The position numbers and the translations under genes were made by a program. This document shows, piece after piece, positions 667 through 42,767 of a stretch of 44,642 nt of DNA. This stretch comes from Myxococcales bacterium (lineage in GTDB: Bacteria; Myxococcota_A; Polyangia; GCA-2747355). Positions within the stretch are counted from its first letter, which is position 1, and each line of letters begins with the position of its first letter. The DNA lies in NCBI GenBank assembly GCA_020431405.1, contig JAGQIK010000228.1, positions 1 through 44,642 on the forward strand. The letters are read 5' to 3'. The notes beneath the pieces are model-generated. The model was not told the DNA's origin and made no database searches. It saw only the letters and a program-made list of their open reading frames with translations.

Positions 667-879
667 ATGACACTGCGCCGCCTGAAGCTGACGCTCTTCA
701 TCATCGTCACCGCCGTGGCGTTGATCCGGTTCTTCACCGGCAACATCATCGGCGGCGTCGTGACGGGAATCATCGCCGCGGCGCTCGGCAGCTGGGCGCT
801 CGACTGGCCCGTGCTCAAGCGCCTGCGGCAGCTGCGCAAGCTGATGCGCTTTCGCTCGTCCAAGAAGGACGAAGACTAA
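667..879 (+). CDS. Small two-helix membrane protein (70 aa)
   Basis: The ATG at 667 is preceded by GGTGAG. Two hydrophobic segments are visible at about residues 7-24 and 27-46, followed by a basic tail with many K/R and a final KKDED, which predicts an inner-membrane protein with a cytoplasmic C-terminus by the positive-inside rule. No family is recognised. It lies 27 bp after the Cys-rich gene and is probably co-transcribed with it. Its TAA stop at 877-879 provides the first base of the 64-bp repeat that separates it from the convergent dehydrogenase. Confidence 0.6.
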   Translation: MTLRRLKLTLFIIVTAVALIRFFTGNIIGGVVTGIIAAALGSWALDWPVLKRLRQLRKLMRFRSSKKDED

Positions 880-942
880 GGGTCACTCTACGACCCGTAA
901 GTCCGCGATCTCGAAGGGCTCACAGCCCACAATGACAAAACG
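879..942 (+). repeat. Single arm of a 64-bp dispersed repeat filling a convergent intergenic gap
   Basis: This segment aligns without gaps to both arms of the inverted element at 41674-41824. The blocks AGGGTCACTCTA at its start, AAGGGC in the middle and AATGACAAAAC at its end are conserved at the same distances in all three arms, while the sequence between them differs. It starts in the stop codon of the small membrane protein and ends one base before the stop codon of the convergent dehydrogenase. GGGCT-CAC-AGCCC (916-928) could form a small hairpin. Its function is unknown; a transcription-termination or 3'-end element, or a mobile half-element, are both possible. Confidence 0.75.
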
Positions 943-1878
943 CTATTTGGTCGTCTCGAGCAGCTGCTCGACGGTGGCGATCTTGTACTCGTCCATCGAG
1001 CGCGCGACGGGATTCTTGGGATCGCTCCAGTCGTAGAAGCCCTTGCCCGTGGCGGCGCCGTACTCGCCGTTCTTGACCATGCGCGCGAGCATGCGCGGCG
1101 GATAGAGGCGCGGGTCGTTGGAGCTCTCGAACATCTCGAGCGAGACGCGCAGCATCGTCGGCGTGCTGATGAAGTCGCACAGCTTGAACGTGCCCTGCGG
1201 GTGGCCGAGGCAGGTGAACAGCCCGTCGTCGCCGTCCTTGACGCTGACCTGATCGATCTCGAGCAGGCGGATGGCGTCGAGCATCTGCGGGATCAGCAAG
1301 CGGTTGACCCAGAAGCCCGGGATGTTGGGTGCAGCAAAGGGCACCTTGTCCATATCGAGCAGCAGCTTGCGCGTCATGTCGACGGTCTCGGGGCTCGTCT
1401 CGCGCCCCGGCACGATCTCGACGCCTTTCATCATCGGCACGGGATTCATGCCGTGGCTGACGATCGAGCGCTGCGGTCTTCCCGCCGCGCGCGCCAGCAC
1501 GTCGATGTCGAGGCTCGACGTATTCGACCAGAACACGACGCGCTCGGGCAGCTGCGGCACGATCTCGCCGAGCACGCGGCACTTGAGGTTGAGATCTTCG
1601 ACGATGATCTCGAAGAAGATGTCGCACCCTTTGGCGGCGTCGACAAACTGCGACCTGTCATCGTGAACGACGATGTTCTGGCGCGTCTTGGCGGCGATCT
1701 CGGGGTCGTCGATCTTGAGCCTGCGCGCGCTTTTCTCCGACAGCCGCGCGCAATAGTCGACCGTCGTCTCGCGCGTCTTCTTGTCGACGTCGTGGCAGTG
1801 CACCGTGTGGCCATACATCGCGAACTGCGTGATCCAGCCGCGGCCCATCACGCCCATGCCCAAGATCGCAATCTTCAT
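943..1878 (-). CDS. 3-hydroxyacyl-CoA dehydrogenase (NAD-dependent)
   Basis: A cytoplasmic enzyme that oxidises (or, in the reverse direction, forms) 3-hydroxyacyl-CoA with NAD(H), as in beta-oxidation or butyryl-type pathways. The 311-aa product has the N-terminal Rossmann motif GMGVMG (residues 7-12), the substrate-site SNTSS (118-122), and a catalytic His142-Glu154 pair inside SHGMNPVPMMKGVEIV, with the 12-residue spacing typical of the family. A C-terminal helical domain carries GFWVNR and a final KGFYDW. Length is normal for single-domain Hbd/PaaH-type enzymes. The ATG is preceded by AAGGAG at 8 bases. It lies 17 bp downstream of mtaB on the same strand. HGMNP in place of the usual HFFNP suggests a divergent substrate range, so I do not name it fadB or hbd. 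Confidence 0.9.
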   Translation of the reverse strand: MKIAILGMGVMGRGWITQFAMYGHTVHCHDVDKKTRETTVDYCARLSEKSARRLKIDDPEIAAKTRQNIVVHDDRSQFVDAAKGCDIFFEIIVEDLNLKCRVLGEIVPQLPERVVFWSNTSSLDIDVLARAAGRPQRSIVSHGMNPVPMMKGVEIVPGRETSPETVDMTRKLLLDMDKVPFAAPNIPGFWVNRLLIPQMLDAIRLLEIDQVSVKDGDDGLFTCLGHPQGTFKLCDFISTPTMLRVSLEMFESSNDPRLYPPRMLARMVKNGEYGAATGKGFYDWSDPKNPVARSMDEYKIATVEQLLETTK

Positions 1879-1895: not shown

Positions 1896-3155
1896 CTAGT
1901 GCTGCGCCAGCAGCGCGTCGCCTTGCACAGAACAGAGCAGCGGCGCGCTGATCGCGTTGATCAGGTCTCGGTTGCTCGGCGCTTCGACGAGCACCTTGAG
2001 GTAGTTATCGGTCAGCCCGACGCACGATCCCTCCGCCACCGTCTCCCAGAGCACCGGGCGGCGCGCGCCGACGTATCGTTCGAGCGTCTCGCGCCGCATC
2101 GTCTCGGCCAGCTCGTGCAGCGCGCGGCTGCGCCGGCGCTTCTCCTCGCTGTCCACTTGGCCGCTCATGCGTGCAGCCGCCGTGCCTTCGCGCGGCGAGA
2201 ACGGAAAGATATGCACGTGCGCGAAGTCGAGCTCGCGCGACAGCTCGAGCGTCTGGTCGAAGTCGGCGGCGCTCTCGCCAGGAAAGCCCACGATCACGTC
2301 GGTGGTCAGACACAGGTCGGGGATTGCAGCGCGCGCCGCGTCGACCAGCGCCCGAAAGCTCGCGCGCGACGTGCGCCGCGCCATGCGCGCCAGCACGCGA
2401 TCAGAGCCGCTCTGCAACGGCAGATGAAGATGCGGACAGAGCCGCCGGTCCTGCCAGAGCGCGAAGAACCCTTCGGGCAGGTCCCACGGTTCGAGCGACG
2501 ACAGGCGCAGGCGCTCGACGTCGGTGGAAAGCAGCACCGCCTCGACGAGCTGGCGCAGGTTGGCGCCGATGTCGCCGCCGTAGCCGCCGAGGTGAACACC
2601 CGAGAGCACGACCTCGCGATGGCCGCGCTGCACCAGATCGCGCACCGTCTCGACGACGTTGCCGATGGGCACCGAGCGCTCGGCGCCGCGCGCGACGGTG
2701 ACGATGCAGAAGGTGCAGCGGTTGCGACAGCCGTCCTGCACCTTGACGAAAGCGCGCGTGCGCGCCGCGCGATAGAGCGACTGCTCGTCGCGTGCCTGCG
2801 CCGGCATTGCTGTCGCGTCGAGGTCCTCGCACAGCCGTGCGACGAGCGTGTCCTTGTCGGCGTTGCTGACGACAAGATCGACCCCGGCCAGCTCGGCAGC
2901 ACGCGCCGGCTCGAGCGCGGCGAAGCAGCCGGTAAGCACCAGCTTGGCGCGCGGGTTCTGGCGGTGCAGCCGCCGCGCCAGCTTGCGCGACTTGCGGCTC
3001 GCCTCGGCCGTCACGGCGCAGGTGTTGAGCACCATCACGTCGGCCTGCTCGGGCGCGTCGAGCACGCGATGTCCACCGCGCGCGAAGTCGCGGCCCCACG
3101 CCTCGAGCTCGGCCTCGTTGAGACGGCAGCCCAGCGCTGACAGGTAAACGTCCAT
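1896..3155 (-). CDS. mtaB: tRNA t6A37 methylthiotransferase MtaB
   Basis: A radical-SAM enzyme that adds a methylthio group to N6-threonylcarbamoyladenosine at position 37 of tRNA. The 419-aa product shows the N-terminal cluster-binding cysteines of the MiaB/MtaB superfamily at Cys10 (LGCRLNEAE), Cys46 (NTCAVT) and Cys77 (TGCFA), then the radical-SAM CRNRCTFC motif (Cys143, Cys147, Cys150), and a C-terminal TRAM-like region. The LGCRLN start and the lack of an N-terminal extension point to MtaB rather than MiaB or RimO. The ATG at 3155 gives the family's expected N-terminus directly; no strong Shine-Dalgarno sequence is seen. It is transcribed with the downstream dehydrogenase and divergently from the peptidase cluster. 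Confidence 0.9.
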   Translation of the reverse strand: MDVYLSALGCRLNEAELEAWGRDFARGGHRVLDAPEQADVMVLNTCAVTAEASRKSRKLARRLHRQNPRAKLVLTGCFAALEPARAAELAGVDLVVSNADKDTLVARLCEDLDATAMPAQARDEQSLYRAARTRAFVKVQDGCRNRCTFCIVTVARGAERSVPIGNVVETVRDLVQRGHREVVLSGVHLGGYGGDIGANLRQLVEAVLLSTDVERLRLSSLEPWDLPEGFFALWQDRRLCPHLHLPLQSGSDRVLARMARRTSRASFRALVDAARAAIPDLCLTTDVIVGFPGESAADFDQTLELSRELDFAHVHIFPFSPREGTAAARMSGQVDSEEKRRRSRALHELAETMRRETLERYVGARRPVLWETVAEGSCVGLTDNYLKVLVEAPSNRDLINAISAPLLCSVQGDALLAQH

Positions 3156-11739: not shown

Positions 11740-14700
11740 GTGGGTCCTGTACGGAGGGCGTCGCGCCTAGGGTGGCTCTGGCTGCTGGTCGCAGCGACTG
11801 GCTGTCTGCAGTCGCAGCAGGCTGACCGCGGCGGCGGTGGAGCAGCCCGTGCGCCGGCGGCTGTCATGCCGCTGGCGCGAATCGAGCGCGTGGCCGACGG
11901 GTCGAAAGTCGCGGCCACGCGGCTGGTCGCGACGCGGGGGGCGAAGAGCGCCTACACGGTGCGCGCGCTCCTTGCTGGCGGCTTTGCAGCGCTTAACGCG
12001 CGGCAGGGGCTGCGAGCGCGCTTCGGCGCCGCGGGCATGGCGCGTGTCAGCGCGCTCTCTACCGCTAAGCAGGCGCGCTTTTCACTATCGCTGCGCGCCG
12101 CGCGCTGGGGATACGGTGACGCGCTGCGAGCGCTTGCTGCTGTGACCAGCGTGCGCGCGCGTGGCGCGCGTGTCGTCATCGGGCGCCCCGAGGGCGTCAC
12201 CGAGTGGTACGACAACAGCCCGCGCGGCCTCGAGCACGGCTTCACGCTGGCACGGCCGCCGTCCACACGCCGCGGTGCCGAGGCGCTAGTGATCGAGCTG
12301 GCAGTCGCTGGCGCGCGCGCGAGCCTGGTCGGCGGCGAGGTGCGTCTGCGCGACGCCGCCGGCCGCGCGCTGGCGCGCTACCGCGCGCTGCAGGTGTTCG
12401 ACGCCGCCAACAAGCGCCTGCCCGCGCGCCTCGCCGTGACATCGGGCGCGATCCGTCTCGTCATCGACGATCGCGCCGCGCGCTATCCGCTGCACGTCGA
12501 CCCGGTGATCGTCACCGAGTCGTTCATCGCCAAGGGCCATGGTCAGGTGCGTTTTGGCCAGGTGGTCGCGATCAGCGGCGACACGGCGGTGGTGGGATCG
12601 CCTGGCGACGACCAGGTGGCCGCCGACGGTGGCGCGGTCACCGTCTTCGTGCGCGGCAGCAACGGGTGGGTCGAGCAGGCCAAGATCGTCGCAGCAGACG
12701 GCGCCGCGGGTGACCGATTCGGGACGGCGGTTGCGATCGAAGGCGACACGCTGCTCGTCGGCGCGCCCTTTGATGACGACAAGGGCGCGGACTCGGGCTC
12801 GGTCTATGTCTACACGCGCAGCGGCGGGCAGTGGTCGCAACAACAGAAGCTCGCGGCGTCGAACGCCATGGCCAACGATCGCTTTGGCGAGCGGCTGGCG
12901 ATCGACGGCGACAGCGCTCTGATCCGCGCCTGGTCGGAGCGTACGCCGGGATTGCTCGAGGGTTTCGTCTACGTCTTCGTGCGCGGCGGCGGCGGCGGCT
13001 GGGGCGAGCAGGCACTGCTCCCACCGAGCGGCTCCCGCACCGACTACGGCAGCGCGATCGCCATCGCGGGCGACCGGGCCGTGGTCTGTGGCGACGGCGC
13101 ATCGACGTACGTTTTTCTGCGCTCGGGAAGCAGCTGGAGCGAGGAGCAGGTGATCACGGACTCCGCTGTGGCCGTCGCCATCGACGGCGACACGATCGTG
13201 ATTGGACCTAGCGTCTACGTACGCGGCTCGACGTGGGCCTTCGATGCCATGCTGATGGGGACTGGCAGCAACGAGTCTTTCGCGCGCGCTGTATCGCTCA
13301 GCGGGTCGCGCGTGCTGATGGGCGCGCCGTCCGGCGACATGCTGGGCGGGGGCGCTGCCTACGTCTTCGTTCGCGATACCAGCGGCTGGACCCTCGAGAG
13401 CAAGCTCACCGCCACCGAGTGGAGCTTCGGCAAGGCGGTGGCGCTCGACGGCGACCGTGCCGTCGTCGGCGCTCCGGAGGACGCCACTCGCGGCGCGGCC
13501 TTCGGATCGGCGACGCTCTTTGCGCGAAGCGGCGCCAGCTGGTCGCAGGAGGCGCAGGTCTTTCCGTCCGCCGAGCGCTTGGGTGACTTCGGCGCCGCGC
13601 TGGCGCTGAGCAACGACACGCTGGCGGTAGGCGCGCCGCGCACCGAGGTTGGCGCTGGCCAGCGCGGCGTGGTCGGCATCTATGTTCGTCAGTCGCCGGG
13701 CAGCTGGAGCGAGCAGCAGGTGCTCTCCGCGCCTGACGGCGCTGACGACGATCGTTTCGGCGCCGCCGTGGCCGTCGATCAGGACACGGTGGCGATCGGT
13801 GCACCGGGTGACGACGACAAGGGCGCCGACTCGGGCTCGGTTTACGTCTCGGTGCGCACGGGCAGCAGCTGGAGCCAGCCGGTGAAGCTCACCGCGAGCG
13901 ACGGTGCGGCGGGCGATGGCTTCGGCCGCGCTGTCACCGTCAGCGGCAACACGCTCGCCGTCGGGGCGCCGGGTCGCGACGATGACGGCCAAGATTCGGG
14001 CGCGGTCTACGTTTTCGTGCGCGCTTCAGGAGCGTGGAGCCAGCAGCAGAAGATCACCGCCGGCAGCGATGGCGCGGCCGGCGACGGCTTCGGCGTCGCG
14101 CTGGCTCTGGGCGGCAATACGCTGGTTGTCGGTGCGCCCGACGACGACGACGCGGCCAATGGCACGGATGCCGGCTCGCTCTACATCTACCAGCGCAGCG
14201 CTGCCGGGGCGCAGTTCGCCAAGCAGCAGAAGATCGTCGCCGCGGCGGGCGCGAGCAACGCGCGGCTGGGCGAGAGCGTGGCGCTGAGCGGCGACACCAT
14301 CGCAGCGGGGGCTGAAGAGCCAACGCAGGCCGCCAGTCAGAGCGGGGCGGTCTACATCTTCGTGCGTCCACCGGGCGGCAGCAGCTGGGCGCAACAGGTA
14401 CGGACGCCCGCCGTCGGCGGCAGCGGCTACATGGGCCGCGCCGTGGCGCTGAGCGGCGACACGCTCGTCGCGCCGGGCACACTCGGCTTCAGGCTGGTGC
14501 CGCAGGTCCTCGTACGCAACGCGGCGCAGGTATGGCGCCCCGCCGCGCGGCCGGAGATCACCAAGGGGCCATACGTCGCGCAGCGCTTCGACTTCGGCGA
14601 CAGCGGCCAGCACTTCCGCGCCCTCGCGGGCACGCGGAATGTGGTGGTCGTCTCCGCCTCCGAGGGCAGCACCATCCCCGACGCGGTCACCATCTTCGAG

Positions 14701-15570
14701 CTCGACTTCCTCGACGACGGCGCCACCTGCGACGTCGCCAATCCCGACGCGTGCTACAGCGGCGTCTGCTTTCAGAGCGCGTGCTGCCACGACGCGTGCG
14801 CCGACCTGTGTCACCGCTGCGACGCGGCGCCGTTTTCGTGCACGCCGGTTTCGCAGCACGTCGACGACACGGCGGGCAGCGATCAGTGCACGGGCGACAA
14901 GACGTGCAACGGCAAAGGCGACTGCTTGCTCAAGAACGGCAAGACGTGCGCGCAGCCGAGCGACTGCGCCAGCGGCTTCTGCGTCGACGGCGTGTGCTGC
15001 GAGTCGGAGTGCAAGGGCAACTGCGAGTCGTGCGCGCTGGGCGGCCAGGGCAAGTGCGAGCCGCACCCCAAGGGCAGCGATCCGGACAAAGACTGCCTCG
15101 GCACGGACGCCGACTGCGGCGGCACCTGCGACGGGGCGGGCGCCTGCGATTTCCCGGGCATCGGCACGCGCTGCGGCGCCAAGCCCTGTCAGGCTTGCGA
15201 CGGCACGGGGCGCTGCAACACCAAGCCGCCCGACGACGACGCCTGCGGCGTGATCGACTGCGACCAGCTCGACACGACGTGCCGCGACTACCAAGACCTC
15301 GACGCCGAGCGCTGCGCGGCCTTCGGCCAGTGCAAGGTCGCCAACGACCCGGCGACGTGTACGAAGGCGACGGACCTCCCGTGTGGCGACGGCGGCGCGA
15401 GCGGCGATGGCGGCGCGAGCGGCGACGGCGCGAGCGTTGGCGACGGCGGCGGCTGCAGCGCGCTCGGCAGCGTGCGGAGCGGAATCAATGGACTGCTGTT
15501 GCTGGCGCTGCTGCTGTTGCAGTTGCTGGGCGTGCGGCGGCGGCACAGGACGACGCGAGAAGGGAGCTGA
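11740..15570 (+). CDS. Giant FG-GAP propeller surface protein with lipobox and MYXO-CTERM tail, copy 1
   Basis: A GTG start with AGAGAGG six bases upstream. The 1276-aa product begins with a lipoprotein-like signal (AATGC, Cys22). Residues 50-250 form an N-terminal domain shared with the next gene, including EWYDNSPRGLEHGFT. A long FG-GAP array (about 255-960) follows, with repeats of the GDTLxVGAPxDDDKG and SGSVYVYTR type. Then comes a Cys-rich region (about 1005-1225) with many CxxxxxC units such as GFCVDGVCC, a Gly/Asp/Ser linker, and a C-terminal GGC, a hydrophobic helix and RRRHR. That last tripartite tail is the MYXO-CTERM surface-sorting signal of Myxococcota. Three bases separate it from its paralogue. 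It is probably a surface adhesin or ligand-binding protein. Confidence 0.9.
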   Translation: MGPVRRASRLGWLWLLVAATGCLQSQQADRGGGGAARAPAAVMPLARIERVADGSKVAATRLVATRGAKSAYTVRALLAGGFAALNARQGLRARFGAAGMARVSALSTAKQARFSLSLRAARWGYGDALRALAAVTSVRARGARVVIGRPEGVTEWYDNSPRGLEHGFTLARPPSTRRGAEALVIELAVAGARASLVGGEVRLRDAAGRALARYRALQVFDAANKRLPARLAVTSGAIRLVIDDRAARYPLHVDPVIVTESFIAKGHGQVRFGQVVAISGDTAVVGSPGDDQVAADGGAVTVFVRGSNGWVEQAKIVAADGAAGDRFGTAVAIEGDTLLVGAPFDDDKGADSGSVYVYTRSGGQWSQQQKLAASNAMANDRFGERLAIDGDSALIRAWSERTPGLLEGFVYVFVRGGGGGWGEQALLPPSGSRTDYGSAIAIAGDRAVVCGDGASTYVFLRSGSSWSEEQVITDSAVAVAIDGDTIVIGPSVYVRGSTWAFDAMLMGTGSNESFARAVSLSGSRVLMGAPSGDMLGGGAAYVFVRDTSGWTLESKLTATEWSFGKAVALDGDRAVVGAPEDATRGAAFGSATLFARSGASWSQEAQVFPSAERLGDFGAALALSNDTLAVGAPRTEVGAGQRGVVGIYVRQSPGSWSEQQVLSAPDGADDDRFGAAVAVDQDTVAIGAPGDDDKGADSGSVYVSVRTGSSWSQPVKLTASDGAAGDGFGRAVTVSGNTLAVGAPGRDDDGQDSGAVYVFVRASGAWSQQQKITAGSDGAAGDGFGVALALGGNTLVVGAPDDDDAANGTDAGSLYIYQRSAAGAQFAKQQKIVAAAGASNARLGESVALSGDTIAAGAEEPTQAASQSGAVYIFVRPPGGSSWAQQVRTPAVGGSGYMGRAVALSGDTLVAPGTLGFRLVPQVLVRNAAQVWRPAARPEITKGPYVAQRFDFGDSGQHFRALAGTRNVVVVSASEGSTIPDAVTIFELDFLDDGATCDVANPDACYSGVCFQSACCHDACADLCHRCDAAPFSCTPVSQHVDDTAGSDQCTGDKTCNGKGDCLLKNGKTCAQPSDCASGFCVDGVCCESECKGNCESCALGGQGKCEPHPKGSDPDKDCLGTDADCGGTCDGAGACDFPGIGTRCGAKPCQACDGTGRCNTKPPDDDACGVIDCDQLDTTCRDYQDLDAERCAAFGQCKVANDPATCTKATDLPCGDGGASGDGGASGDGASVGDGGGCSALGSVRSGINGLLLLALLLLQLLGVRRRHRTTREGS
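14761..15435 (+). repeat. Near-identical Cys-rich coding block, copy 1 (pairs with 18640-19314)
   Basis: This segment encodes the Cys-rich domain of the first giant propeller protein. It aligns to 18640-19314 at a constant offset of 3879 bp. In the 480 bp I compared base by base (14881-15360) there are 12 mismatches, and only two change an amino acid. The propeller parts of the two genes are far more divergent, which suggests recent gene conversion or strong selection on this block. Confidence 0.85.
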
Positions 15571-15573
15571 TTC

Positions 15574-18500
15574 GTGCGCACACGTACCGCGGTCGCGATG
15601 TGCCTGGCGTGGGCGCTGCTCGCGGCGACGGGCTGTATCCAGAGCCAACAGGCCGATAGCAGGCCCGCCGGCAATGCGGCTCCGCTGGCCACCATCGAGC
15701 GGCTGGCCGATAGCGTCGCCGGCGGCGCGCGCATCGCCACGACCCGTATCGCCGCCGGGCGCATCGGCGCCACGGGCCTCGGCGTTGGTGTCGCTTCAGC
15801 GGAGAGCTACCACGCGAGGGCCGGGGCCACGCCGCGCAGCTTCGACGCGCTCAACGCGGCGCAGCGCCTGCGAGTGCGCTTCGACGCGGTGGGCGCCGCG
15901 CACCTGCGCTCGCTGTCCGCGTCAGCAGTGTTCACGATCTCGCTGCGTGCCGCGCGCTGGGGTTACGGCGAGGCGCTGCGCGCTTGGCGCCGCGTGACGA
16001 GCGCGCGCGCCGCCGGACGGCGCGTCCGCTACGAGCGCGCGGGCGACGGCGTGACCGAGTGGTACGACAACAGCCCGCGCGGCCTCGAGCACGGCTTCAC
16101 GCTGGCGCGCCCGCCGTCCACGCGCCGCGGCGCCGAGCCGCTGGTGATCGAGCTTGCACTCACCGGCGCGCGCGCGAGCCTCGCAGGCGACGAGGTGCGT
16201 CTGCGCGACGCCGCGGGCCGCGTGCTGGCGCGCTATCGCGCGCTGCAGGTGCTCGACGCCGCCAACAAGCGCCTCTCCGCGCGCCTCGCCGTGGCATCCG
16301 GCGCGATCCGCCTCGTCATCGACGATCACACCGCACGTTACCCGTTGCGCGTCGATCCCGTGCTCGTCACCGAGTCGTACATCGAGAAGGGGCATGGTGT
16401 CGTGAGGTTTGGCGAGGCCATCGCGCTCAGTGGCGACACCGCGGTGATCGGCTCGCCCGGCGACGACAGCAAAGGGACCGATGCTGGCGCCGCTTATGTC
16501 TTCGTGCGCGGCGCCAGCGGCTGGGTCGAGCAGGCCAAGCTCGTCGCTTCGGACGGCGCCGCCGGCGACGCCTTTGGCATCACGGTGGCCATCGACGGTG
16601 ACACCGTGCTCGTCGGCGCGCCCAGAGACGATGACAAGGGCAGCGAATCGGGCTCGGTGTACGTCTACGTGCGGTCCGGCGCGCAGTGGAGCCTGCAGCA
16701 GAAGATCGTCGACGCCGCCGGCCAAGCCGACGATCACTTCGGCAGCGCCGTCGCGCTCGACGGCGATACCGCGCTCGCGAGCATCCGTCCAAACGTAGCC
16801 GGATCGACGGGACCCAGTAGCGTGTCCGTGCTGGTGCGCAGTGGAAGCAGCTGGAGCGGGCAGGGGCGGCTCGTGCCAACCAGCGGGTTGACCACCTCTT
16901 TCTTTGGCGGCGCGCTCGATATCAGCGGCGACACGGCGGTGGTTGGCGACACGCATCTTGGTGTGGCCTTCGTCTTCGTTCGAAGCGGCACGAGCTGGAG
17001 CGAGCAGCAGAAACTCGCGGCGGGGCCCGGCAAGTTCGGCGCTTCCGTCGCCGTCGACGGTGACGCGATGGTCGGTTGCTCGTTGACCGGTGACCGCGCC
17101 TGCTACGTCTTTCGTCGCAGCGGTACGTCGTGGAGCGAAGAAGGCCAGCTGCCGCCGCCGACCACCGCCGACGTCGACTTTGGCCGTGCGGTCGACATCA
17201 GCGGCTCGCGCGTGATCGTCGGCGCCCCCGGGGCACAGACCGATCCAGGGGAAGCGTACGTCTTTCAGCGCGGTGCGAGTGGCTGGGACAGCGGCACGAG
17301 CTTGACGGGCAACGGCCGCTCGGAATTCGGTCGGGCCGTGGCGATCGACGGCGACCGCGCGCTCGCCGCGTCGTCCGAGGACCCCACGGTGGCGCCGTAT
17401 TTCGGAGCCGTATACGCGTACGCGGTCAACGGCGCCGCGTGGCCACAAGATGGCCAGCTCGTACCCTCTGCCGATTGGTCAGGCGAATTCGGCGCGGCGC
17501 TGTCGGCGAGCAAGGGCACCCTCGTCGTGGGCGCTCCGAGCCGCGTGCTCAATGGCGAGCGCCGCGGCGAAGCTGGCGTGTACGTCAGGCAAGCCGCGGG
17601 CACCTGGAGCGAGCAGCAGGTGTTGGTGGCCTCCGACGGCGCAGACGCCGATCGCTTCGGCGTGGCGGTCGCCATCGATGGCGACACGGCCGTCGTCGGG
17701 GCTGACGGCGACGACGACAAAGGCGCCGAGGCGGGCTCGCTTTACGTGTTCACACGGGCATCGGGCAGCTGGAGCCAGCAGCAGAAGCTCGTCGCCGCCG
17801 ATGGGGCTGCCGGCGACAAGCTCGGCCACGTGGTGGCCGTCAGTGGCGATACCCTCGCGGTGGCGGCGCCGGCGGACGACGACAAGGGGCAGGACTCGGG
17901 CTCGGTCTACGTGTTCACACGCGCATCGGGTACCTGGAGCCTGCAGCAGAAGATCGTCGCCGCCGATGGCGCCGCCGGCGACGGCTTGGGTGCAGCGCTC
18001 TCGCTCGACCGCGACACGCTGGCCATCGGCGCACCCGATGACGACGACCGAGGTGATGGCTCAGGCGCCGTCTACGTGTTCCAGCGATCGGCGGGCACGT
18101 GGACGCTGCAGCAGAAGATCGTGCCGGGTGACGGCACGGCCGGGGCACGCTTTGGCCTCAGCGTCGCGCTCGAAGGCGACAGCGTCGCGGCGGGCTTCGA
18201 TGATGGGACCCAAAGCGGCGTGTATGTCTTCGCGCGCTCGGCGGGCAGCTGGAGCCAGCAGGTCAAGCTGTTGCCCGAGGCCGGCGCCGCCAGCTACGCC
18301 ATGGGCAAGACGATCGCGATGTCGGGGAATGTGCTGTCCGCTGGCGAGCGTCGCTACACGACGACGAGCTCCGCCTCGGACTTCAAGCTGGCGCCACCGA
18401 TTCTCGTGCGCGACGCCGCTGGTAGCTGGCGCCAGCGGCTGCGCCTCTCGTTCGGCAGCGGCCCGTTCCTCGATGACGTGGTCTCGAGCGCCTCGGCCTT

Positions 18501-19455
18501 CACCGCGCTGGCCGTCGCGGACCGCACAGTTTTTCTCGGCTTTGGCAACACGTTCTATATGCCCGGTCTGGTCTACATCTTCGAGCTGACATTCGAAGCC
18601 GACGGCGCCACCTGCAGCGACGCCGACTCGTGCTTCAGCGGCGTGTGCTTTCAGAGTGCGTGCTGTCACGACGCGTGCGCCGACTTGTGTCACCGCTGCG
18701 ACGCGGCGCCGTTTTCGTGCACGCCCTTCGCGCAGTACGCCGAAGATACGATGGGCAGCGATCAGTGCACGGGCGACAAGACGTGCAACGGCAAGGGCGA
18801 CTGCTTGCTCAAGAACGGCAAGACGTGCGTGCAGCCGAGCGACTGCGCCAGCGGCTTCTGCGTCGACGGCGTGTGCTGCGAGTCGGAGTGCAAAGGCAAC
18901 TGCGAGTCGTGCGCGCTGGGCGGCCAGGGCAAGTGCGAGCCGCACCCCAAGGGCAGCGATCCGGACAAGGACTGCCTCGGCACGGACGCCGACTGCGGCG
19001 GCACCTGCGACGGCGCGGGCGCGTGCGACTTCCCGGGCATCGGCACGCGCTGCGGCGCCAAGCCCTGTCAGGCCTGCGATGGCACGGGGCGCTGCAACAC
19101 CAAGCCGCCCGACGACGACGCCTGCGGCGTGATCGACTGCGACCAGCTCGACACGACGTGTCGCGACTACCAAGACCTCGACGCCGAGCGCTGCGCGGCG
19201 TTCGGCCAGTGCAAGGCCGCCAACGACCCGGCGACGTGTACGAAGGCGACGGACCTCCCGTGCGGCGACGGCGGCGCGGGCGGCGATGGCGGCGCGAGCG
19301 GCGACGGCGCGACGGGCGCTGGCGATAGCGGCGGCTGCAGCTGTCGCGTGGCCGCGCGACCGGACGGGTCGCTGGCCGTGCTCTCGCTTCTCGCGTTGGT
19401 CGCGCTGCTGCGACGACGTCGCCGTCGGGGAGGGCTGGTTGCCGCGCGCCGCTGA
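15574..19455 (+). CDS. Giant FG-GAP propeller surface protein with lipobox and MYXO-CTERM tail, copy 2
   Basis: A GTG start with AGAAGGGAG eight bases upstream, just after the stop of copy 1. The 1293-aa product has the same architecture: a signal with AATGC (Cys21), the EWYDNSPRGLEHGFT-containing N-terminal domain, an array of FG-GAP units (GDTAVIGSPGDD, SGSVYVYVR and similar), the Cys-rich block and a C-terminal GGCSC, a hydrophobic helix and RRRRRR. That tail is a textbook MYXO-CTERM signal, and its GCSC motif is more canonical than the GGCSA of copy 1. The two genes are a tandem duplication in one transcription unit. Having both a lipobox and a sorting tail would allow two anchors or a processed N-terminus; which applies is not visible from sequence. 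Confidence 0.9.
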   Translation: MRTRTAVAMCLAWALLAATGCIQSQQADSRPAGNAAPLATIERLADSVAGGARIATTRIAAGRIGATGLGVGVASAESYHARAGATPRSFDALNAAQRLRVRFDAVGAAHLRSLSASAVFTISLRAARWGYGEALRAWRRVTSARAAGRRVRYERAGDGVTEWYDNSPRGLEHGFTLARPPSTRRGAEPLVIELALTGARASLAGDEVRLRDAAGRVLARYRALQVLDAANKRLSARLAVASGAIRLVIDDHTARYPLRVDPVLVTESYIEKGHGVVRFGEAIALSGDTAVIGSPGDDSKGTDAGAAYVFVRGASGWVEQAKLVASDGAAGDAFGITVAIDGDTVLVGAPRDDDKGSESGSVYVYVRSGAQWSLQQKIVDAAGQADDHFGSAVALDGDTALASIRPNVAGSTGPSSVSVLVRSGSSWSGQGRLVPTSGLTTSFFGGALDISGDTAVVGDTHLGVAFVFVRSGTSWSEQQKLAAGPGKFGASVAVDGDAMVGCSLTGDRACYVFRRSGTSWSEEGQLPPPTTADVDFGRAVDISGSRVIVGAPGAQTDPGEAYVFQRGASGWDSGTSLTGNGRSEFGRAVAIDGDRALAASSEDPTVAPYFGAVYAYAVNGAAWPQDGQLVPSADWSGEFGAALSASKGTLVVGAPSRVLNGERRGEAGVYVRQAAGTWSEQQVLVASDGADADRFGVAVAIDGDTAVVGADGDDDKGAEAGSLYVFTRASGSWSQQQKLVAADGAAGDKLGHVVAVSGDTLAVAAPADDDKGQDSGSVYVFTRASGTWSLQQKIVAADGAAGDGLGAALSLDRDTLAIGAPDDDDRGDGSGAVYVFQRSAGTWTLQQKIVPGDGTAGARFGLSVALEGDSVAAGFDDGTQSGVYVFARSAGSWSQQVKLLPEAGAASYAMGKTIAMSGNVLSAGERRYTTTSSASDFKLAPPILVRDAAGSWRQRLRLSFGSGPFLDDVVSSASAFTALAVADRTVFLGFGNTFYMPGLVYIFELTFEADGATCSDADSCFSGVCFQSACCHDACADLCHRCDAAPFSCTPFAQYAEDTMGSDQCTGDKTCNGKGDCLLKNGKTCVQPSDCASGFCVDGVCCESECKGNCESCALGGQGKCEPHPKGSDPDKDCLGTDADCGGTCDGAGACDFPGIGTRCGAKPCQACDGTGRCNTKPPDDDACGVIDCDQLDTTCRDYQDLDAERCAAFGQCKAANDPATCTKATDLPCGDGGAGGDGGASGDGATGAGDSGGCSCRVAARPDGSLAVLSLLALVALLRRRRRRGGLVAARR
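18640..19314 (+). repeat. Near-identical Cys-rich coding block, copy 2 (pairs with 14761-15435)
   Basis: The second copy of the direct repeat described at 14761-15435. As a direct repeat of about 675 bp separated by 3.2 kb, it is a plausible site for homologous recombination that would fuse the two genes into one chimera and delete one gene's worth of DNA. Confidence 0.85.
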
Positions 19456-40676: not shown

Positions 40677-41675
40677 GTGGACGCACCAAGCCGCGAGCGC
40701 TGGCTGTTGGCGCTGTTGTACCAGCTCGGACAGCGCATCAGCGGCGGCGCGCCCCTCGAAGACCTGCTCGCTCACATCGCCGAGGCGGCCTGCGAGCTGA
40801 GCAGTGCAGAGTCGGCGTCGGTGATGCTGCTCGACGACAAGCGGCGACAGCTGCTGTGCGCCGCGAGCTACGGACTGAGCGACGCCGAAGCGGCTGCAGC
40901 ACGCTTCGCGCTCGGCGAAGGCCTCGCCGGCTGGGTCGCCGAGCACGGCGAGCCCGCCACCGTCGGCGACACGTCGCGCGACCCGCGCTTCGTGGAGGTC
41001 GTCGGCCAGCAGCCGGCGCGGCTGCGCAGCCTCTGCTGCGTGCCGATGTTCGCGCGCTCGGGCCTCATCGGCGTGGTCACCATCGGCTCGCCGGAGCTCG
41101 ATCGCTTCAGCGCCGACGACGAGGAGCTGCTCGGCTACATGGCGGCGGCCGTCGCCAAGGACGTCGAGAATGGGCGCCTCTATCGGCTGGCGATCACCGA
41201 CGCACTGACGGGGCTATACAACCGCCAGCACGTCGGCGAGAAGCTGCCGCAGGAGATCGCGCGCCACCGACGCTACCAGCAGCCGCTGTCGCTGTTGCTG
41301 CTCGATGCCGATCACTTCAAGCAGGTCAACGATCGCCACGGTCACGACGTCGGCGACGAGGTGCTGCGCGGGCTGGCGCAGAGGCTGCGCGAGAGCACGC
41401 GCGACGCCGACATCGTGGCGCGCTACGGCGGCGAGGAGTTCATGGTGTTGCTGCCCAACACCGCCGAGGAAGGCGCCGAGAACCTCGCCGAGCGACTGCG
41501 CGCGGCGGTGCGCGACACGCCGATCGCCGCTGCGGGCGTGGCGGTGTCGATGACGCTGAGCGCCGGCCTCGTCACGTTGGGCGACGGCGAGAACGCCGAG
41601 GCGCTGGTCAAGCGCGCCGACCAGGCGCTCTATCGCGCCAAGAACAGCGGCCGCGACCGCATCGAGATCGGCTAG
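40677..41675 (+). CDS. GAF-GGDEF diguanylate cyclase
   Basis: A 332-aa soluble enzyme that makes cyclic di-GMP from two GTP. The GAF domain spans about residues 15-160. The GGDEF domain (about 165-332) contains TDALTGLYNRQH, LLDADHFKQVNDRHGHDVGD and the active GGEEF motif starting at residue 251. An allosteric inhibition site RDAD (242-245) lies exactly five residues before GGEEF, so product inhibition is likely. The GTG start at 40677 fits the domain boundary. Its TAG stop overlaps the start of the inverted 64-bp repeat. It is an active counterpart to the degenerate GGDEF module in the activator at 9530. Confidence 0.92.
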   Translation: MDAPSRERWLLALLYQLGQRISGGAPLEDLLAHIAEAACELSSAESASVMLLDDKRRQLLCAASYGLSDAEAAAARFALGEGLAGWVAEHGEPATVGDTSRDPRFVEVVGQQPARLRSLCCVPMFARSGLIGVVTIGSPELDRFSADDEELLGYMAAAVAKDVENGRLYRLAITDALTGLYNRQHVGEKLPQEIARHRRYQQPLSLLLLDADHFKQVNDRHGHDVGDEVLRGLAQRLRESTRDADIVARYGGEEFMVLLPNTAEEGAENLAERLRAAVRDTPIAAAGVAVSMTLSAGLVTLGDGENAEALVKRADQALYRAKNSGRDRIEIG

Positions 41676-41824
41676 GGTCACTCTATGCCGCGCAAACACC
41701 CGAATCTAAAGGGCGCGTAGGCGACAATGACAAAACCGGTCGTGCGATATCCGCACAACCGGTTTTGTCATTATGCGCTTTGCGCCCTTTGATTCCGGCG
41801 GGTTCTCGATCGTAGAGTGACCCT
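41674..41824. repeat. 151-bp imperfect inverted repeat: two 64-bp arms facing each other
   Basis: The left arm (41674-41737) and right arm (41761-41824, inverted) match each other and the single arm at 879-942 in length and in the conserved blocks AGGGTCACTCTA, AAGGGC and AATGACAAAAC. Sequence between the blocks differs among arms. The ends lie within the stop codons of the two convergent genes (TAG of the diguanylate cyclase, TAG of the epimerase), so the element fills the whole gap. No transposase is encoded. It could be a terminator-like 3' module, a MITE-type element, or a protein-binding repeat. Confidence 0.8.
41726..41772. terminator. Candidate bidirectional terminator hairpin in the repeat core
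   Basis: AATGACAAAACCGGT (41726-41740) pairs with ACCGGTTTTGTCATT (41758-41772); inside, GTGCG pairs with CGCAC around an ATATC loop, giving a 21-position stem with one C/A mismatch. The GGTTTTGTCATT arm provides a short T-run on either strand, and the two flanking genes converge here. This fits a shared terminator, although the T-run lies inside the stem rather than after it, so termination would not be of the classic form. Confidence 0.55.
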
Positions 41825-42767
41825 AGGTTTGGCGGTACCAGGCGACGAAGCGCGCGAGGCCCTGCTCGAGCGTGGTCGACGGCGCGTAGCCGAGCTCGTC
41901 GCGTGCGCGCGAGATGTCGGCGCTGGTGATCGGAACGTCGCCGGGCTGCAGCGGCAGCTGCTCGATGTCGAGCTCGCGACCGGTGGCCACGCCGATGGCG
42001 GCGATGAGGTCGCGCAGCAGCACGGCGTGGTCGCCGCCGAGGTTGTAGATCGCGAAGCGCCCCGCCTGCTGACGATCGAGCGCGGCGATGCTGCCCGCGA
42101 CGATGTCGTCGATGAAGGTGTAGTCGCGCCCCGAGCTGCCGTCGCCGAACATCGGGATCTGCTCGCCGCGCTCGGCGAGGCGCACGAACTTGTGGATCGC
42201 CATCTCCGGGCGCTGCCCAGGGCCGTAGACGGTGAAGTAACGCAAGCACGTTACGGCTGTGCCGTGGAGCTCGTTGTGCGCTGCGCAGCAAAGCTCGGTG
42301 GCCTTCTTGCTGGCGGCGTAGGGCGACGCGGGGCGGTCGCACGCGTCGTCCTCGCGAAAGGGCACCTGCGAGCGCGATCCGTAGACCGACGAGGACGAGG
42401 CGACGACGACGCGGTCGACGCCGGCCTCGCGGCAGCGCTCGAGCAGCGACATGGTGCCTTCGACGTTGACGCGCATGTAGCGCGCTGGCGCTGCGATGGA
42501 CGGTCGGACGCCGGCGAGGGCGGCGAGGTGCATCACCGCGTCGGCGCCGGCCAGCGAGCGCGCGACGGCTTCATCGTCGAGCAGATCGCCCTCGATCAGC
42601 GAGAAGGCCTCGTGCACGGCCAAGCGGGCGACGTTGCGCTCCTTGAGCGCGCGGTCGTAGTAGGGATCGAAGTTGTCGAGGCCGCAGACGGTGTCGCCGC
42701 GCTCGAGCAGCGCCTGGCAGATGGCCGAGCCGATGAAGCCCGCGGCGCCTGTGACCAAGATGCGCAT
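41823..42767 (-). CDS. NAD-dependent sugar-nucleotide epimerase, UDP-glucuronate 4-epimerase-like
   Basis: A 314-aa extended short-chain dehydrogenase: Rossmann motif GAAGFIG (residues 7-13), SSSSVYG, and the catalytic YAASK. DNFDPYYD and GVRPS are close to signatures of UDP-glucuronate 4-epimerases (DNFxxYYD, GVRxS), and the late RDYTFIDDIV matches that subgroup. It would supply UDP-galacturonate or a related sugar for LPS, capsule or exopolysaccharide. It is the last of a minus-strand run starting with a sugar nucleotidyltransferase at the window edge, which supports a glycan role. Subgroup assignment is by motif only. Confidence 0.85.
   Translation of the reverse strand: MRILVTGAAGFIGSAICQALLERGDTVCGLDNFDPYYDRALKERNVARLAVHEAFSLIEGDLLDDEAVARSLAGADAVMHLAALAGVRPSIAAPARYMRVNVEGTMSLLERCREAGVDRVVVASSSSVYGSRSQVPFREDDACDRPASPYAASKKATELCCAAHNELHGTAVTCLRYFTVYGPGQRPEMAIHKFVRLAERGEQIPMFGDGSSGRDYTFIDDIVAGSIAALDRQQAGRFAIYNLGGDHAVLLRDLIAAIGVATGRELDIEQLPLQPGDVPITSADISRARDELGYAPSTTLEQGLARFVAWYRQT

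Follow-up and report, generated by a model that had tools for sequence, protein, structure and literature searches.

A 64-bp repeat that fills the gap between two convergent genes of a Myxococcales bacterium is best explained, at a probability that we put near 80%, as one arm of an old miniature element of the RAYT/TIRYT type (HUH, Y1), kept at gene ends by selection on two short sequence blocks. The same repeat brackets a RAYT gene on another contig and is dispersed as inverted pairs and single arms; it spread in the past as a unit, has been retained for a long time at gene ends, and holds its blocks constant while the bases between them drift.

Three Arms in One Window

The window, by which we mean the whole stretch of 44,642 nucleotides analysed, contains three arms, one single and two forming a paired element (Table 1). 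They align over 64 positions without a gap, as the preliminary description had stated, with pairwise identities of 45, 47, and 44 of 64 and 38 positions common to all. Its observation that the arms start inside stop codons is also borne out: the codons are TAA at 877-879, TAG at 41673-41675, and TAG at 41825-41823 (minus strand). The inner end of the single arm directly adjoins another stop codon, the TAG (945-943, minus strand) of the dehydrogenase gene. A blastn search with 41672-41826 as query matches the single arm over 879-941 (E = 2.3e-4), and the RNA fold of 41665-41835 is predicted at -96.5 kcal/mol (z -11.0). Elsewhere in the window, two large tandem ORFs (11740-15570 and 15574-19455) contain repeated segments, with 300-nt segments 90-94% identical and internal repeats of 165 nt.

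Table 1. Arms, blocks, and neighboring genes in the window
Feature	Position	Strand	Remarks
Small ORF, 70 aa	667..879	+	Called by coding score; no Pfam match; TAA ends on first base of single arm
Single arm (terminal inverted repeat unit)	879..942	+	Fills gap between two convergent genes; nhmmer 55.0 bits
Outer block of single arm, GGGTCACTCT	880..889	+	Unchanged in 100/100 arms
Inner block of single arm, ACAATGACA	929..937	+	Arm positions 51-59; pattern match C712:929-941
3-hydroxyacyl-CoA dehydrogenase gene	943..1878	-	Pfam PF02737, PF00725
GAF-GGDEF gene (diguanylate cyclase type)	40677..41675	+	Pfam PF00990, PF13185; TAG overlaps arm bases 1-2
Paired element, two convergent arms, 23-bp loop	41674..41824	.	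Between two convergent genes; blastn, nhmmer
Left arm	41674..41737	+	Outer block 41675-41684, inner block 41724-41732; nhmmer 57.3 bits
Right arm	41761..41824	-	Outer block 41823-41814, inner block 41774-41766 (ATAATGACA); nhmmer 52.3 bits
NAD-dependent epimerase/dehydratase gene	41823..42767	-	Pfam PF01370; TAG overlaps arm bases 1-2

A Dispersed Family with Two Fixed Blocks

The preliminary description was built on three arms; the genome holds 100 that are near full length. The blastn query found about 40 further places in the 11.2-Mb genome, and a sequence model built from 71 arms, the three window arms included, detects about 100 genome-wide, most at E < 1e-6; two partial arms bring the nhmmer matches to 102. 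The family comprises 36 inverted pairs and 26 single arms, and two further arms bracket a gene on contig C699. Most of the inverted pairs (28 of 36) measure 150-152 bp and the remainder 160-183 bp. A 12-mer of the repeat has 12 exact occurrences in the genome against none for its reversed control; within the window alone it is weak, 11 of 100 shuffles giving three matches with two mismatches allowed.

Arm positions 2-11 (GGGTCACTCT) never vary in the 100 arms. Nearly constant positions are G14 (93 arms), A21 (99), A22 (94), G29 (96), and T55-A59 (98-99), and positions 60-62 read AAA or TTT. The bases between the blocks do vary, as had been noted from the three arms, median pairwise identity over positions 12-50 being 56%. 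As a control against a model that selects for the outer block, the genome was searched with the inner block only, one mismatch being allowed. All 85 sites recovered lie within arms carrying the exact outer block, 84 of them at the standard spacing and one (C686) off by a single base, and they include 16 of the 26 single arms (18 of 28 when both C699 arms are counted). The outer block without a surrounding arm occurs at four extra sites (C136, C254, C367, and C472), against two for the reversed control. The motif GGGGWSAS is present in strict form in 74 arms, and in all 100 if its first base may be A or G.

Rfam searches of three loci (L016, L013, and L043) gave nothing over the gathering score; among the four matches up to E = 1, none lies on an arm except one at L043 1505-1590, outside the element. 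A plasmid collection gave no match. The exact two-block pattern has four single matches in the GTDB contig collection and one in viral contigs, in scans that may leave out records near the genome itself; we read these five loci as chance and not as family members, because none matches model R1 (see below) even at E = 10.

Docking at Gene Ends

Genes were called with our own codon-score script, not a standard gene finder. On these calls the relation to stop codons extends to the family: the stop of the nearest sense gene lies within -15 to +66 of the arm start in 75 of 100 arms. Neither outcome that the preliminary description named as refuting, a total of three arms or placement without relation to gene ends, is seen. 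Measured from the arm's first base, stop ends fall at 0 (20 arms), +1 (14), -3 (8), and +21 (8), the last being a stop codon supplied by the arm itself. Gaps with an element are convergent in 34 cases, tandem in 26, and divergent in 1 (n = 61), whereas the element-free gaps of the same loci number 25, 151, and 44, respectively (n = 220), a marked convergent enrichment (34/61 versus 25/220; Fisher p = 3e-12). Docking within -3 to +1 is seen in 43/100 arms, compared with 0.07 under a null of gap plus 30 bp of coding flank and 0.45 under insertion inside native gaps only; for convergent paired elements the figure is 25/40 against a null of 0.26. How strong docking looks thus varies with the null; short gaps account for some of it but leave a remainder.

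Arms in related genomes behave similarly. Among 89 examined, 58 of the 72 with a called sense gene have its stop within -15 to +66, with peaks at -1 (21 arms, GGGACA directly following the stop) and +21 (10 arms). 

Flanks inspected by eye have no constant target duplication, and TA occasionally stands on both sides. Two junctions in G000 (C489:6228-6290, L121 ~2963-3025; C73:10256-10330, L125 ~2953-3027) carry tandem direct duplications of ~37 and ~47 bp that cover the gene-end flank and the arm's first ~26 bases, as one round of copying at the junction would leave.

A RAYT Gene between Two Arms

On contig C699, arms at 11880 and 12736, 856 bp apart, stand around a 233-aa ORF reading ...HHVILRGNNRRRLF...MTNHVHL.... 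Its product matches Pfam PF01797 (Y1_Tnp; 39.6 bits) and NF047646 (NCBIfam REP-associated tyrosine transposase; 80.4 bits, just above the cut-off of 80), and its only match among solved structures in the PDB is TnpArep (4er8, E = 1.3e-4). The gene is thus a RAYT, and the arm is the terminal inverted repeat of that gene. The preliminary description knew of no named family with this layout; that statement falls, since the arms have the layout of the terminal inverted repeats found on RAYT/TIRYT transposons (PMC3733652), and contig C699 holds a copy with its transposase gene. The genome has 12 Y1_Tnp matches, and only the one on C699 carries these arms.

A search of 377 genomes of the phylum found a RAYT match at E <= 1e-15 in 59. 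A closer clade, at 37-51% identity and within the same class, comprises the copies in G388, G163, G385, G200, G210, G215, G384, G350, and G346. Long inverted arms that start GGG[AT][CG]A likewise flank the clade RAYTs of other families in the class; such arms are clear at 7 of the 9 clade loci, G350 and G346 having short matches or tandem copies. No helix-turn-helix domain was detected by Pfam, at E up to 10, in the genome's own RAYT or in three relatives. The G163 gene, flagged as broken by one TAA, was dropped as a candidate for a disrupted RAYT, a 218-aa ORF with the core being open. More distant RAYTs at L189 (G098) and L191 (G011) are bracketed by other inverted repeats (GTGGGACAGTCACCC and GGGGTCAAACCTTGAC...TTGACATT, respectively), hinting at a wider GGG(A/T)CA family.

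Arms in Related Genomes

Model R1, applied to 39 genomes (the genome itself and 38 relatives), has matches in its own genome only. This result misleads, the blocks of relatives in other families having diverged. A second model, R2, was made from the RAYT-flanking arms of G388, G163, G385, G210, and G215, and 12 genomes were searched with it. Dispersed arms were found in all five (44 in G388, 27 in G385, 29 in G163, 28 in G210, and 31 in G215), three weak ones in G200, one partial arm in G031, and none in G023, G384, G350, G346, or G000. G384 and G350 have the RAYT, and their arms have diverged; G200 has the clade RAYT, yet only its three weak arms. G023 and G031, which belong to the same genus as G388 (g22), have no clade RAYT at E <= 1e-15.

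The outer blocks are genome-specific: GGGACACTCT in 42 of 44 arms of G388 and 23 of 28 of G385, GGGACAGGAT in 17 of 27 of G210, and GGGACACGCT in 19 of 31 of G163. G346 has a block of its own, the pattern for sites of the GGGTCACTGCA type matching 37 times and its reverse 10 times. GGG[AT][CG]A[CG] is present in 127 of 130 arms of the relatives. At L251 (G388 C85), near-identical elements at 1499-1640 and 2153-2295 are separated by about 650 bp and suggest that duplication took place locally and recently.

Blocks and Middles at Orthologous Gaps

For orthology, 23 loci were fetched from G388, 17 each from G163 and G385, and 16 from G210. In the comparison with relatives that the preliminary description had proposed, the element is present at some orthologous gaps and absent from others. 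Each pair of genomes shares it in the same gap at 10 to 14 locus pairs, the RAYT locus included, and sites have persisted over a divergence between species to DNA identities of about 75-80%. Neither block has a site-specific signal at orthologous gaps; both follow the genome: the outer block is shared in 0 of 19 orthologous arms between G388 and G163, and between G388 and G385 it is identical in 19 of 23 orthologous arm pairs, compared with 60% identity in the middles. Arm middles resemble each other more when the arms are orthologous than when they are re-paired (p < 0.001 in five of six genome pairs; p = 0.052 for G210/G163). Arm middles have thus been inherited vertically, and blocks have changed genome-wide in concert.

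The concerted change is also what would be expected if RAYT-driven conversion continually replaced copies in place, keeping their blocks identical with no selection at individual sites. Given the preserved orthologous middles, such replacement would have to spare the middle of each arm, and we consider this explanation unlikely, though it fares best among the alternatives.

One convergent gap holds the element in G388, G210, G385, and G163 and lacks it in G200, G031, and G023. The element-free version is about 30 bp; its two stop codons share the sequence CTAG in G031 and G023. Since G200 stands closest to G388 at that gap (89%), loss of the element is the most economical account for G200; independent insertion is a possible alternative because the stop point of the plus-strand gene differs among the four carriers. 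One relic in G031 keeps both outer blocks with the middle deleted. At a single locus, an orthologous relic in G200 (L215) compared with G388 (L256) has changed block bases and a middle that is in large part identical.

The Central Hairpin

The two arms of an element agree at positions 60-66 more often than re-paired arms (0.81 versus 0.56; 0 of 10000 permutations), and positions 12-50 have no arm-to-arm pairing signal (0.57 within elements, 0.56 re-paired; p = 0.26). Inner ends match and middles do not, so that a short central hairpin is maintained, the arm bodies being constrained as directional units and the long hairpin as a whole not being selected. A hairpin inside each arm was considered and rejected, covariation being absent (0.598 versus 0.595 shuffled). 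The 36 pairs have cores of the types AAA...TTT (20), TTT...AAA (12), and others (4).

The repeat could in principle be a host gene-end signal, a bidirectional terminator or insulator, with the RAYT copy lying only incidentally between two arms. Its strict 3'-end position and orientation would fit, as would the A-tract and T-tract flanks in 20/36 pairs and a strongly folded central hairpin (z below -2) in 26/36. A signal of this kind would hardly be bracketing clade RAYTs of other families as well, or be reduced to nothing in G023 and one partial arm in G031, the g22 genomes without a clade RAYT. The 12 reversed cores leave no T-run after the stem, and unpaired arms are followed by a strong hairpin in only 6 of 28 cases. 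We regard this explanation as improbable. Within the RAYT/TIRYT-type element that we favor, the central hairpin may possibly act as a bidirectional transcription terminator, of benefit in some copies.

Origin and Maintenance of the Copies

The preliminary description took the pattern to mean selection on the blocks and not recent copying. That reading is supported, the blocks being held while the middles drift. Copies did spread in the past as whole units: elements alike in one arm tend to be alike in the other (r = 0.24, permutation p = 0.0045), and one pair of elements (C659/C91) has a similarity of 0.85 in both arms. A conventional DDE-transposase MITE, its long TIRs drifting after a burst and its invariant block inherited from a recent master sequence, would share the palindromic, intergenic, noncoding character of the paired copies, but is very improbable given a Y1/HUH RAYT between the arms, flanks without a consistent target duplication by eye, orthologous sites in different species, and strongly diverged middles beside a block kept in 100/100 arms, 16/26 single arms having been found without using it.

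From these sequences we infer that the RAYT would recognize two blocks, GGGTCACTCT (outer) and ACAATGACA (inner), together with the central hairpin, and that it would have transposed copies in single-stranded form, a route that would agree with the absence of a constant target duplication. The insertions that survived probably did so for the most part at the 3' end of a gene or slightly inside it, the element then providing the stop codon or lying next to it. Copies would now stay put through a continuing need for intact blocks, probably as RAYT binding sites, and block constancy may reflect a binding need at each site.

A further reading, which we offer tentatively and hold somewhat less probable than its opposite, is that the clade RAYT is a tamed, sequence-specific gene-end binding protein with the arms as its operators at gene 3' ends. 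If so, a shift in RAYT specificity would change dozens of fixed sites along with it, loss of the RAYT would let the sites disappear, and RAYT and repeat together would serve the host in regulation or genome maintenance and would not be a transposon family. According to PMC8049555, it is not known exactly what the RAYT does; the paper also describes RAYTs as vertically inherited, domesticated genes. Drifting middles beside held, jointly switching blocks separate site-by-site selection from transposition bursts; the family names the exact bases to mutate, and G023, G031, and G200 provide natural losses for comparison.

Comparison with Known Systems

GTAG REPs, BIMEs, and REPINs (Nunvar 2010, PMC2817692; Bertels and Rainey 2011, PMC3116915) are likewise RAYT-linked, form inverted pairs, and occupy intergenic places close to 3' ends. 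The TAG stop of a gene is often provided by the terminus of a GTAG REP, and in the two families charted convergent REPs come within 20 bp of the ORF on either side (PMC3733652). Unlike them, the arms described here have no hairpin with a conserved GT[AG]G at its foot: the motif has one fixed antisense place in 55/100 arms and is in sense in at most 4, and the hairpin beside the antisense motif lacks covariation (0.598 versus 0.595 shuffled). The arm is also longer than a REP (20-40 bp), and whereas REP singlets are described as usually decaying remnants (PMC8049555), all single arms here keep the outer block.

TIRtrons and TIRYTs were defined, in the portion of Di Nocera et al. 2013 (PMC3733652) used here, with the motif GGGGWSAS, which some but not all published TIRs share, with TIR dimers, and as moderately abundant families; the corresponding portion of Quentin et al. 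2018 (PMC6006769) gives the same motif and links TIRYTs to subclass 2.1. TnpAY1 of that subclass has a C-terminal domain of helix-turn-helix type, which was not detected here (Pfam, E up to 10). Our family differs from TIRtrons in its two fixed blocks within an arm of 64-66 nt, in pairs mostly of 150-152 bp, in its stop-codon docking, in single arms whose outer block is fully kept, and in blocks that switch at orthologous sites. We did not find these arm traits stated for TIR repeats in those portions of PMC3733652 and PMC6006769, nor, in a limited literature search, any earlier description of blocks changing in concert at such sites. The likeness lies in the plan of the element: a Y1 RAYT-like gene stands between long TIRs, which the C699 copy fits, and the TIRs are dispersed, often as dimers, as are the 36 pairs and 26 singles that accompany one RAYT copy here.
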